Origin: Halorubrum saccharovorum DSM 1137
GTDB taxonomy: Archaea; Halobacteriota; Halobacteria; Halobacteriales; Haloferacaceae
Direction of reading: 5' to 3'
DNA: 48,918 nt
NCBI RefSeq assembly: GCF_000337915.1
Contig: NZ_AOJE01000057.1
Span: forward strand, 230,216 to 279,133
The first letter of the stretch is position 1. Every line of letters starts with the position of its first letter. Shown one piece after another: positions 15,410 to 19,586 of the stretch. Below the pieces are notes generated by a model. That model was not told the origin of the DNA. It was given only the letters and a program-made list of their open reading frames with translations, and did no database searches. Both the position numbers and the translations under genes were made by a program.

Positions 15410-15607
15410 TTACGCCGACGCGTCGTAGCCCGCCTCGCTCACCGCGCTCACCAAGGCGTCCGGGTCGGCGTCGCCCTCGACGGTCGCGGACTCGCGCTCG
15501 CGGTCCGCGGTCGCGCTTTCGACGCCGTCGACGCCTTCGAGCGCCTCCGTCACGCTTTGCTCGCAGTGCTCACACGACATCCCCTCGACGGTGATCGTCT
15601 GACTCAT
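15410..15607 (-). CDS. copZ: CopZ-like heavy-metal-associated (HMA) copper chaperone
   Basis: The 65-aa ferredoxin-fold protein carries the metal site GMSCEHC near its N-terminus (MSQTITVEGMSCEHCEQSV) and ends with the usual SEAGYDASA. Such proteins bind Cu(I) and pass it to P1B ATPases and regulators in the cytoplasm. ATG at 15607 gives the standard domain start. It is divergent from the Lrp-TRASH regulator and 1.3 kb from copA, so the three form a copper-handling cluster. Confidence 0.92.
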   Translation of the reverse strand: MSQTITVEGMSCEHCEQSVTEALEGVDGVESATADRERESATVEGDADPDALVSAVSEAGYDASA

Positions 15608-15738
15608 GACGGGTTCCGGTAGGGTCGGAAGCGGTTTGTCGCTTTCTCCTTCGCGATCGGGGTTCGAACGCCGTCTCGACTTTGGAATCCGAACCCGATC
15701 GCCCAACCGTCTTATATATCGGAGCCGTACCGGGAGAC
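15608..15738. promoter_or_regulatory. Divergent copZ / Lrp-TRASH promoter with candidate copper operator
   Basis: CTTATATATC (15711-15720) is a strong TATA box whose centre is about 24 nt before the regulator ATG, giving a leaderless mRNA. Upstream lies the 11-mer ACTTTGGAATC (15679-15689), which recurs in front of copA at 16787-16797. An imperfect inverted repeat (GATCGGGGTTCG at 15655-15666, CGAACCCGATC at 15690-15700) flanks it. The box for copZ is weak. Confidence 0.55.
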
Positions 15739-16338
15739 ATGCGCGACCTCGACGAGACGGACTTGGAGATCCTGTCGCTGCTGGCAGAGAACGCCCGGCG
15801 TCCCTTCAGCGAGATCGGCGAGCGGGTGGGGCTGTCGGGGCCGGCGGTCTCCGACCGCGTCACGCGGCTGGAGGAGACCGGCGTCATCGAGGGGTTCACG
15901 GTCGACGTCGACCGCACGAAGCTCCAGGCGGGCGTTCCGGTGTTGGTGGACGTAGAGCTGCCGCCGAACCGCCCCGAGGCGCTCGACGCGGCGCGGGATC
16001 GGGTCCGAGCGGCCGACCCGGTCGAACACGTCTTCGTCACGGCCGAGGGCGACCTCCGGGTGTACGCTCGCGTCGAGGGTCGGAACGCCCGGGAGTGGGT
16101 GGCCGGGCTGTTCGAGGGGGTCGCCGTCGACGACTACGCGGTCACGCTGGTCGACGTGTTCGAGTGGACGCCCTCGGTCGAGGGCGTGGAGTTCGCGTTG
16201 ACGTGTGCGGAATGCTCGAATACTGTTGATAGTGAAGGCGAGACGGCGCGGATCGACGGCGAGGTGTACCACTTCTGCTGTCCGTCCTGCCTGTCGCGTT
16301 TTAGGGAGCGGTACCAGCGACTGGAGGAGGGGGCGTGA
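15739..16338 (+). CDS. Lrp/AsnC-type copper regulator with C-terminal TRASH domain
   Basis: The 199-aa protein has an N-terminal winged helix (LDETDLEILSLLAENARRPF, then SGPAVSDRVTRLEETGVIEG) and a RAM-like sensor domain at about 65-145. The C-terminal TRASH metal module carries C156 and C159 (CAEC) and C180, C181, C184 (CCPSC). This layout matches the Halobacterium copper regulator VNG1179C, which is needed for copper-induced expression of the CopA-type ATPase. Position between copZ and copA supports the same role. ATG at 15739 is placed at the leaderless distance from the TATA box. Whether it binds the shared ACTTTGGAATC site is inference. Confidence 0.88.
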   Translation: MRDLDETDLEILSLLAENARRPFSEIGERVGLSGPAVSDRVTRLEETGVIEGFTVDVDRTKLQAGVPVLVDVELPPNRPEALDAARDRVRAADPVEHVFVTAEGDLRVYARVEGRNAREWVAGLFEGVAVDDYAVTLVDVFEWTPSVEGVEFALTCAECSNTVDSEGETARIDGEVYHFCCPSCLSRFRERYQRLEEGA

Positions 16339-16383
16339 TACGGTGAATACGCAGTTGACCCCGGATCGTCTGTGAACTCCGCC

Positions 16384-16428
16384 AACGTCTCGGCCGATCG
16401 CTTATCAACGTCTCGGCCGATCGCTTAT
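16384..16428 (+). repeat. Two tandem 23-bp repeats carrying TATA-like sequence
   Basis: Two identical 22-bp copies (16384-16405 and 16407-16428) have a period of 23 and each ends in CGATCGCTTAT. The second copy reads on as CGCTTATAA, a good haloarchaeal TATA box. They sit just before the large inverted repeat and the hairpin element in the regulator-copA gap. Confidence 0.85.
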
Positions 16429-16473
16429 AACTGATTGCTGTCGGTAGCGCGACGGTGAACTCCGCCAAAGCCC

Positions 16474-16570
16474 CAGTCGCGAGGGCTCGCGCGCCTTGCT
16501 GCGCTCCTCTCTCGGTCGCTTCGCTCCCTCGTTGCGGTGCTTACTGCGGCGTGCTTCGCCCTCGCGACTG
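16474..16570. repeat. Large inverted repeat, 13-bp perfect arms
   Basis: CAGTCGCGAGGGC (16474-16486) is the exact reverse complement of GCCCTCGCGACTG (16558-16570). The intervening 71 nt is GC-rich with short self-complementary runs, so a branched structure is possible. It lies 5' of hairpin element copy 1. No plausible protein is encoded. Confidence 0.8.
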
Positions 16571-16607
16571 CCCCTTTGAGTCCCGCCCGAACTGCAACCG
16601 CACAGCA

Positions 16608-16725
16608 CCTCACACCTCCCCAGCCTCGTCAGTCGCCCTCCGCGTTGCCTTCGGGCGACTGACTCCCTCGCGCGTGCTGACTCGCGGCCTGTCGGCCGCT
16701 CGCAGGCACGCGCCACCGCCTTCTT
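16608..16725 (+). repeat. Interspersed hairpin element, copy 1
   Basis: The core begins CCTCACACCTCCCCAGCCTC. An 11-bp stem follows: GTCAGTCGCCC (16628-16638) with GGGCGACTGAC (16653-16663) and a 14-nt loop. Then a second structure is seen: GCGCGTGC pairs with GCACGCGC around an inner GCGGCC/GGCCGC hairpin (about 16670-16712). Copies 2 and 3 are at 36934 and 48846. The stem differs in sequence but not in pairing. Confidence 0.8.
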
Positions 16726-16786
16726 TAGATCGACGCCCTCGCTCGTCCCGTTTCCTTGTCTCTCCGATCGACTGATCACAACGGCC

Positions 16787-16871
16787 ACTTTGGAATCGAA
16801 GGTTTCGACCCACTCGGAGGCGAACTCTCGAAGCAGAAAACCGCCTAAGGGTGGAACACGTAGTAGTACAC
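16787..16871 (+). promoter_or_regulatory. copA promoter region
   Basis: The 11-mer ACTTTGGAATC at 16787-16797 is identical to one in the regulator promoter. A weak TATA-like CCTAAG lies at 16845-16850, about 25 nt before the ATG at 16872. The remaining sequence up to 16338 is filled by the tandem repeats and hairpin element, so copA regulation probably sits in this 85-bp segment. Confidence 0.5.
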
Positions 16872-19586
16872 ATGCCAACGAGAACAGCTCACCTGAACGT
16901 CACGGGCATGTCCTGCGCCAACTGCTCGGCGACGATCGAGGACGCCCTCGACGACCTCGACGGGGTGGCGTCGGCGAACGCCAACTACGCCACCGACGAG
17001 GGATCGGTCGAGTACGACCCCGAGGAGGTGTCGCTCGGCGAGATATTCGACGCGATCGAGTCGGCGGGGTACGGCGCAGTCACCGAGACGGTTTCGGTCG
17101 CGATCACGGACATGTCCTGCGCGAACTGCGCGGAGGCCAACACGGAGGCCCTCGAATCGACGCCGGGCGTGATCGAGGCCGACGTGAACTACGCGACCGA
17201 CGAGGCGCAGGTCCGGTATAACCCCGCCGACGCCTCGCTCGGCGACCTCTACGACGCGATCGAGTCGGCGGGGTACTCGCCGGTCCGGGAGGGCGGCGAG
17301 GGCGGTGGAGACGGCGACGACAGCGCCGACGGCGCCGACGGCGCCGGCACGGGCGACGCCGAACAGGACGCCCGCGACGCCGCCCGCGAGGAGGAGATCC
17401 GCAAGCAACTCCGACTGACCCTCTTCGGTGCGGTCCTCGCGACTCCCCTGCTGGCGTTCATGGCCGATCACCTGCTGTTCGCCGGCGAGATATTCCCGGA
17501 CCGCGTCTTCGGCGTGCGTCTCGGCTGGGTCCAGTTCCTGCTCGCGACCCCCGTGCAGATCGTCTTGGGGCGCCCGTTCTACAGGAACTCGTACAAGGCG
17601 CTCGTGACGAACGGGCGCGCCAACATGGACGTGCTGATCGCGCTCGGCTCCACGACCGCGTACGTCTACTCGGTCGCGGCGCTCTCGGGCGCGATCGCCG
17701 GGAGCCTCTACTTCGATACGGCCGCGCTCATCCTCGTGTTCATCACGCTCGGCAACTACCTGGAGGCCCGCTCGAAGGGCCGCGCCGGCGAGGCGCTCCG
17801 GAAGTTACTGGAGATGGAGGCCGATCAGGCAACCCTCGTCGACGATGACGGAACCGAGCGGGAGGTCCCCGTCGACGAGGTCGAGGTCGGGGACCGGATG
17901 AAGGTGCGCCCGGGCGAGAAAATCCCGACCGACGGGGTCGTCGTCGACGGCCAGAGCGCGGTCGACGAGTCGATGGTGACCGGCGAGTCGGTCCCGGTCG
18001 AGAAGGGGGAAGGCGACGAGGTCGTCGGGTCGACGGTGAACGAGAACGGGCTGCTCGTGGTCGAGGCGACGAAGGTCGGCGCCGACACCGCGCTCCAGCA
18101 GATCGTCCGCACGGTCAAGGAGGCGCAGTCGCGCCAGCCCGACATCCAGAACCTCGCCGACCGCATCTCGGCGTACTTCGTCCCCGCGGTCATCGTCAAC
18201 GCCCTCCTGTGGGGAACCGTCTGGTTCCTCTTCCCGGAGGCGCTTGCCGGGTTCGTCGACGCCCTGCCGCTGTGGGGGCTCGTCGCCGGCGGCCCGAGCG
18301 CCGCGGGCGGTGCCGTCACAGTCTCCGAGTTCGCGATCGTCGTGTTCGCCTCCGCGGTGCTCATCGCCTGCCCCTGCGCGCTCGGGCTGGCGACGCCCGC
18401 CGCGACGATGGTCGGCACGACGATCGGCGCCGGACACGGCGTCCTGTTCAAGGGCGGCGACGTGCTCGAACGCGCCAAGGACGTCGACACCGTCGTCTTC
18501 GACAAGACGGGGACGCTCACCGAGGGCGAGATGGAGCTGACCGACGTGGTCGCGTTCGACCGCGACGGCGAGCCCCTCCCGGACGGCGGCGCGGCGCAGC
18601 GGTGGGAGGGCGACGACGACCTCCCGTCCCCCGGCTCCGATCCCGACACCGATCGCAACCCGGAAGACGAGGTACTCCGACTCGCCGCGACCGCCGAGCG
18701 CGGCAGCGAACACCCGCTCGCCCGCGCCATCGTCGAGGGCGCCGAGTCGCACCGGATCGACGTGGGATCCCCGGACGAGTTCGAGAACGTCCCCGGGCAG
18801 GGGGTCCGCGCGACGGTCGCCTCGGACGGGTCCGGCGAGGCCACCGAGGTGCTGGTCGGCAACCGGAAGCTGCTGCGTGACAACGGGATCGACCCCTCGC
18901 CCGCCGCGGAGACGATGGAGCGCTTGGAGAGCGAGGGGAAGACGGCGATGCTCGTCGCCCGCGTGTCCGCTGACACGAACGAGGGCCGGCTCCTCGGCGT
19001 CGTCGCCGACGCGGACACCGTGAAGCCGAGCGCGGCCGACGCCGTCTCGGCCCTCCGCGACCGCGGTATCGACGTGATGATGATCACGGGCGACAACGAG
19101 CGCACCGCCCGCGCGGTCGCCGAGCAGGTCGGGATCGACCCCGAAAACGTCCGGGCGGAGGTCCTCCCGGAGGACAAGTCCGACGCGATCGAGGCGATCC
19201 AAGCCGACGGTCGGCAGGCGATGATGGTCGGCGACGGCGTCAACGACGCCCCCGCGCTCGCGGTCGCGTACGTCGGGACCGCCATCGGGAGCGGCACGGA
19301 CGTGGCCATCGAGGCCGCGGACGTGACCCTGATGCGCGACGACCCGCTCGACGTGGCGAAGGCGATCCGGATCTCGGACGCGACGCTCCAGAAGATCAAA
19401 CAGAACCTCGTGTGGGCGCTCGGCTACAACACGCTGATGATCCCGCTCGCGTCGCTCGGCCTGCTCCAGCCCGCGCTGGCCGCCGGGGCGATGGCGCTGT
19501 CCAGCGTGAGCGTGCTCACCAACAGCCTGCTGTTCCGCCGGTACGACCCCGACCGCGATTACCGGCTGCTCGGCCGACTGCGGTGA
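16872..19586 (+). CDS. copA: Copper-exporting P1B-type ATPase CopA
   Basis: The 904-aa ATPase pumps Cu(I)/Ag(I) out of the cytoplasm. It has two N-terminal HMA domains with C15-A-N-C18 and C83-A-N-C86, an acidic linker, and eight expected membrane helices. The transport site is C500-P-C502 ([14 protein letters not shown]), the phosphorylated aspartate is D544 in [10 protein letters not shown], the actuator motif is [20 protein letters not shown] marks the nucleotide domain, and [13 protein letters not shown] is the hinge. ATG at 16872 starts the first HMA domain ([20 protein letters not shown]); seven extra upstream codons are possible but less likely. CPC plus the neighbouring CopZ and TRASH regulator make copper much more likely than zinc. 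Confidence 0.96.

Follow-up and report, generated by a model that had tools for sequence, protein, structure and literature searches.

A candidate CopR operator at the copZ, lrp and copA promoters of Halorubrum saccharovorum

In Halorubrum saccharovorum DSM 1137, a gene for an Lrp-type regulator with a TRASH domain (lrp) lies between genes for a copper chaperone (copZ) and a copper pump (copA), and an identical 11-mer stands in front of the regulator and in front of copA. This raises the question of whether the repeat belongs to a working control element and, if so, which regulator it serves and at which of the three promoters. Our starting point was a stretch of 48,918 nucleotides (hereafter the window), with the following genes and repeats.

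15410..15607, minus strand: copZ, HMA-domain copper chaperone of 65 aa (Pfam HMA, E 3.1e-19; NCBIfam NF047957)
15739..16338, plus strand: Lrp-TRASH regulator of the CopR type, 199 aa (Pfam, predicted fold and cysteine conservation)
16872..19586, plus strand: copA, copper-translocating P-type ATPase of 904 aa (TIGR01511 above cut-off; two HMA domains)
15679-15689, plus strand: 11-mer ACTTTGGAATC, first copy (exact pattern search)
16787-16797, plus strand: 11-mer ACTTTGGAATC, second copy (exact pattern search)

The regulator, its neighbours and the repeated 11-mer

The initial annotation likened the regulator to a known copper regulator, and its domains bear this out: helix-turn-helix, RAM and TRASH domains are combined in a protein that is linked to both copA and copZ, i.e. 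to a copper ATPase and an HMA chaperone, as is typical of the Lrp-TRASH class. The AsnC-type helix-turn-helix is N-terminal (PF13404, residues 4-45, E 1.3e-16) and the TRASH domain C-terminal (PF24273, TRASH_HVO_1752_C, residues 153-199, E 2.1e-26); cysteines C156, C159, C180, C181 and C184 of the latter are invariant in 36 sequences. The predicted model (mean pLDDT 79.2, pTM 0.44) has elements in RAM order (beta-alpha-beta-beta-alpha-beta) at residues 66-137. It matches Lrp-family chains with Z 9.7-11, but with an rmsd of ∼6 over 124-138 residues, and the stand-alone RAM protein 2zbc with Z 10.6 and an rmsd of 1.9 over 76 residues, with other ferredoxin-like folds also near Z 9; as modelled, the middle domain is a RAM of the Lrp/AsnC type. 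The copZ product scores above the cut-off of NF047957 (CopZ family metallochaperone). No RNA family reaches its gathering threshold in the window, and the long lrp-copA intergenic stretch contains a perfect 23-bp tandem duplication at 16383-16428.

Both copies of the 11-mer were found on the plus strand where the initial annotation had placed them. The GAA that it saw within a few bases of each follows immediately on the copA side (16798-16800) and after one intervening base on the lrp side (15691-15693), and the first copy does start 72 nt from the ATG of the divergent copZ (15607). No further exact copy exists in the 3,423,703 bases of the genome, and the reversed pattern is absent. The match had been considered unlikely to arise by chance, which holds only in part, because, when promoters were dinucleotide-shuffled, 76 of the 4000 pairs also had a common word of at least 11 letters, i.e. 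p ∼0.02 before allowing for the choice of promoters. Allowing two mismatches, the window contains three matches where 3.5 are expected; the 11-mer alone is thus weak evidence, and the case is carried by the comparative evidence. A search of 39 genomes from the genus gave 26 exact matches to the 11-mer, compared with a total of four for the reversed control; 13 of the 26 adjoin lrp, copZ or copA, and the other 13 lie elsewhere. The shuffled pairs and the scattered genus copies are what would speak for a mere coincidence of letters, picked out by the reader.

A 15-bp dyad at a fixed distance from copA and copZ

Comparison of upstream regions from relatives showed that the 11-mer makes up the greater part of a dyad 15 bp long, CTTTSGA-W-TCSAAAG. 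The element noticed in the initial annotation is thus real, but its true unit is this dyad, with the trailing GAA as part of the second half-site. We rejected the 11-mer as a functional unit, because the symmetry runs beyond it and 13 of its 26 occurrences in the genus are at unrelated places. The features concerned are:

15680..15694, no strand assigned: putative dyad operator in the divergent copZ/lrp promoter, CTTTGGAATCCGAAC (13/15 match)
16788..16802, no strand assigned: putative dyad operator of copA, CTTTGGAATCGAAGG (14/15 match)
15711..15720, plus strand: TATA-like box of lrp, CTTATATATC (read from the sequence)

With up to two mismatches, the dyad occurs four times in the window's genome and not at all in the reversed control. 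Three of the four sites are copper promoters, namely copA, copZ/lrp and a second copA (C57:97875); the fourth (C66:40811) is not close to any gene recognisable as copper-related and is taken as a chance match. Scanning genomes at three mismatches proved unspecific (73 sites versus 41 in the control for the window's genome, and 48 versus 23 for Halobacterium salinarum) and was rejected. A third copZ-like gene (C57:19145) has no dyad at up to four mismatches within 250 nt.

How does the site divide among the three genes? The initial annotation treated lrp and copA as matched promoters, and both do have the site, but its geometry pairs copZ with copA: the dyad starts at -87 from the copZ ATG and 84 nt 5′ of the copA ATG, as against -59 from the ATG of lrp. 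The lrp promoter has an ordinary TATA-like box and none of the dyad geometry of copA and copZ. Because its core promoter differs and copZ carries the copA geometry, the pairing of lrp with copA was rejected, and this shared layout makes the dyad in the copZ-lrp interval most readily understood as the copZ operator; lrp has a dyad in its promoter because it is divergent from copZ. Among promoters of copZ genes divergent from lrp, 32 of 47 have the dyad at up to three mismatches. Of 45 non-redundant lrp promoters for which no divergent copZ was detected, 13 have the dyad as well, mostly near -59, but a short copZ could have escaped detection in some of them.

Conservation was examined at 80 named haloarchaeal copA loci, 75 of which have a usable ATG (L189, L217, L240, L264 and L265 were dropped); removing promoters at least 70% identical to a kept one left 51. 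The dyad is present at up to three mismatches within 160 nt upstream in 40 of these 51 and absent at this threshold from the other 11. The best match falls at -92 to -78 in 34 promoters, always starting between -83 and -88, and any match at up to three mismatches falls there in 35; the consensus was, however, drawn by eye from relatives whose taxa overlap the named set, so that the two sets are not independent. Composition-matched permuted palindromes, used as positional control, reached a mean of 0.76 of the 51 promoters and a maximum of 39, the high-scoring ones being read as near-variants of the motif. The dyad accompanies copA both with lrp within 3 kb (23/32) and without it (12/19), and is therefore a feature of the copA promoter rather than of the adjacent gene. 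Given this fixed position in the relatives, and the absence of control sites from the window's genome at the two-mismatch threshold, coincidence is a most improbable account of the repeat.

At higher stringency, the exact 13-bp core TTTSGAWTCSAAA occurs at 30 places in 52 genomes of the genus, compared with one for the reversed pattern. Twenty-two of them adjoin lrp, copA or both, and six of the remaining eight represent two repeated elements from two genomes, as judged by common flanks. In one genome (G180; L286, L305 and L306), a single repeated element with the exact core is present in four copies. The same genus includes loci (L050-L065) with a lone Lrp-TRASH protein ∼50% identical to that of the window and no dyad in front; in some of these genomes, regulator and target are unlinked, and an unlinked copA has the exact core (L284, L289, L296, L299, L301).

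The relaxed pattern is less exclusive. When the dyad was searched at up to one mismatch in 146 genomes of the order and 30 places from a longer list were examined, 10 of these 30 listed matches were near copA or lrp and 20 were away from them, and in one family most of the places examined were not near copper genes. Palindromes of the TTTCGAWTCGAAA type therefore occur elsewhere too, and those away from copper genes are perhaps sites of another regulator; L112-L128 are examples from other families, none of them close to copA, lrp or copZ. This bears on the alternative that the dyad is the operator of a different protein, such as an Lrp protein lacking the TRASH domain or a regulator of the general stress response, while Lrp-TRASH acts elsewhere. 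Lrp paralogues are certainly numerous (eight Lrp-like proteins are described for H. salinarum in the available text of PMC4236453). Against it, lrp-TRASH, copZ, copA and the dyads are linked across families. Moreover, the best dyad in the H. salinarum genome is a single site at copA, and the accessible text of PMC3551603 reports for H. salinarum NRC-1 that copper induction of a yvgX promoter-GFP fusion is absent in a deletion of the regulator gene VNG1179C. We thus consider a different regulator unlikely. That the 11-mer marks a site linked to the Lrp-TRASH regulator, as the initial annotation supposed, is very probable for the dyad, given its conservation by position, while the 11-mer alone is not copper-specific.

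A phased second site and the core promoter

Anchoring 41 copA promoters on the distal dyad revealed a second peak of similarity to the motif exactly 31 bp downstream, with a mean of 8.85 of 15 matches and with at least 11 of 15 in 10 of the 41. The maximum over 300 shuffles was 5.61, and none of 300 permuted patterns did as well; the highest-scoring permutations, listed by name, are near-variants of the motif. As the pattern had been derived from the distal site, this test of the proximal one is independent of pattern discovery. The same peak is seen in 28 copZ promoters (7.39 at +31), in which the distal dyad also stands at the same distance from the ATG as in copA promoters. A spacing of 31 bp is approximately three helical turns, so that both dyads would lie on the same side of the helix. 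The proximal site is the better match of the two in the copA promoters of L212, L214, L238, L244 and L255. The initial annotation passed over both this degenerate second dyad, seen in relatives, and a core-promoter element shared by copA and copZ. In the window the corresponding features are:

15649..15663, minus strand: copZ proximal dyad in degenerate form, spaced 31 bp from its distal partner (8/15 match)
16828..16834, plus strand: half-site TCGAAGC at the proximal position of copA, where the complete dyad is not retained (5/15 match)
15641..15653, minus strand: copZ core-promoter element CGAAGGAGAAAGC (two mismatches to the copA element)
16829..16850, plus strand: copA core-promoter element CGAAGCAGAAAACCGCCTAAGG, BRE/TATA region with a poor TATA

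The proximal sites of the window are thus reduced, to a half-site at copA and a degenerate dyad at copZ. The proximal site abuts the conserved core-promoter element, which copA and copZ have in common in the form CGAAGCAGAAAAC...TAAG; its conserved copA pattern, at up to three mismatches, is found at two sites in the genome, both of them copA promoters. A dyad just upstream of the target core promoters, a further mark of the Lrp-TRASH class, is hence present here as a sequence feature. The shared core element would also suit the idea that the common words descend from one copied copper promoter and mark no protein site. However, the 16-bp spacer between the dyads is not conserved across families, whereas the dyads and their 31-bp spacing are, and common ancestry as the sole cause is very unlikely.

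CopR as the likely regulator, and known systems

Taken as sequence features, the two 11-mers very probably account for the greater part of two distal operators for the haloarchaeal CopR, which is encoded between them. The mirror symmetry of the site and its fixed distance from pump and carrier genes speak for a genuine control element, probably functional, of a regulator type that has been described before. In the mechanism that we propose, a CopR dimer would bind the 15-bp dyad centred ∼77-80 bp before the start codons of copA and copZ. A second dimer, part of the same assembly, would be helped onto the weaker site 31 bp downstream on the same face, where it could touch the BRE of the core promoter, whose TATA box is poor. 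Delivery of Cu to the TRASH domain would then allow the bound assembly to activate transcription of pump and chaperone, presumably by helping TFB/TBP at the weak core promoter. Direct binding by CopR, its oligomeric state on the DNA, activation via the proximal site and any autoregulation of lrp are what we infer here.

The closest relative of this system is CopR of H. salinarum (VNG1179C; targets yvgX, VNG0702H and VNG2581H), likewise an Lrp-TRASH protein with a pump and HMA chaperones as targets; genetic knowledge of haloarchaeal copper control comes from this organism. NRC-1 and DSM 3754 genes were equated by similarity and gene order, and the dyad was scanned for in genome G098, whose copA is 100% identical to that of DSM 3754. 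At this copA/yvgX orthologue, the best dyad of the genome (one mismatch) stands at -85, the same distance as for the copA of the window. Unlike in the window, where copZ, lrp and copA are adjacent, regulator and pump are unlinked in H. salinarum. The regulator promoters differ as well: the lrp of the window has a site in common with copZ, while the lrp-TRASH promoter of G098 has no dyad (eight mismatches at best), which fits with VNG1179C expression being unchanged by Cu as reported in PMC3551603. No dyad was found at the VNG0702H-like copZ adjoining copA in H. salinarum, and the other stand-alone copZ has a weak one (three mismatches, at -51). CopR is worded as a repressor of copper ATPases in the accessible text of PMC5605881, against the activator reading.

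Pyrococcus furiosus CopR, as described in the available part of PMC7830388, is also an Lrp-TRASH protein with a similar operator-BRE layout: a 15-bp semi-palindrome lies directly upstream of the BRE, the targets have an atypical, C-rich TATA box, and protections are repeated approximately one turn apart. The letters differ, with TTNNCAWWWTGNNAA in P. furiosus versus CTTTSGAWTCSAAAG in haloarchaea; when the TTNNCAWWWTGNNAA consensus was compared by eye with the two window sites, aligned at the same centre, its C-A and T-G were absent. That text describes one motif per promoter, whereas haloarchaea have two dyads at 31 bp, and P. furiosus copR is divergent from copA while the lrp of the window is divergent from copZ. 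In the CopT/CopR cop cluster of Sulfolobales, a regulator with a C-terminal TRASH domain, a metallochaperone and a copper ATPase are clustered as in the window (review PMC3600143).

Our text search of the literature found no written haloarchaeal CopR operator, the VNG1179C motifs being given as figures (PMC4236453, PMC4177876). The Lrp-TRASH type of copper regulator is already known; for its probable operator in haloarchaea, the present analysis supplies a consensus, a fixed position and a phased second site. The result fits the pattern of archaeal Lrp-TRASH regulators beside weak core promoters and is useful and directly testable rather than surprising. A dyad at a fixed position with a phased partner could serve for predicting the copper regulon in any haloarchaeal genome; it also lends itself to a straightforward test by mutation and offers a natural promoter part for induction by copper. 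A broader reading, which we put forward tentatively and judge somewhat less likely than not, is a switch common to the haloarchaea. A CopR assembly would occupy both dyads, separated by three helical turns, and the proximal dyad would overlap the BRE where the core promoter is poor in TATA; CopR would thereby take the place of a good TATA box, and Cu would turn the parked complex into an activator. The copper threshold would then be set by the relative strength of the distal dyad, strong in most promoters, and the proximal one, strong in those of the Haloarcula type.

The genome of the window has a second copper cluster with copZ, lrp-TRASH and copA (G000:C57:93278-101862; L033), which over 6.9 kb matches loci of Halorubrum trapanicum and Halorubrum sp. 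CSM-61 at 99.97-100% identity. For a sister cluster, identity is 97.5-99.99% over 6.9-8.1 kb among six genera (Halorubrum, Haloarcula, Natrinema, Halovenus, Halopenitus and Halosegnis), and the near-identity of these copper clusters (L033, L194, L199-L208, L219) looks like recent spread between genera.
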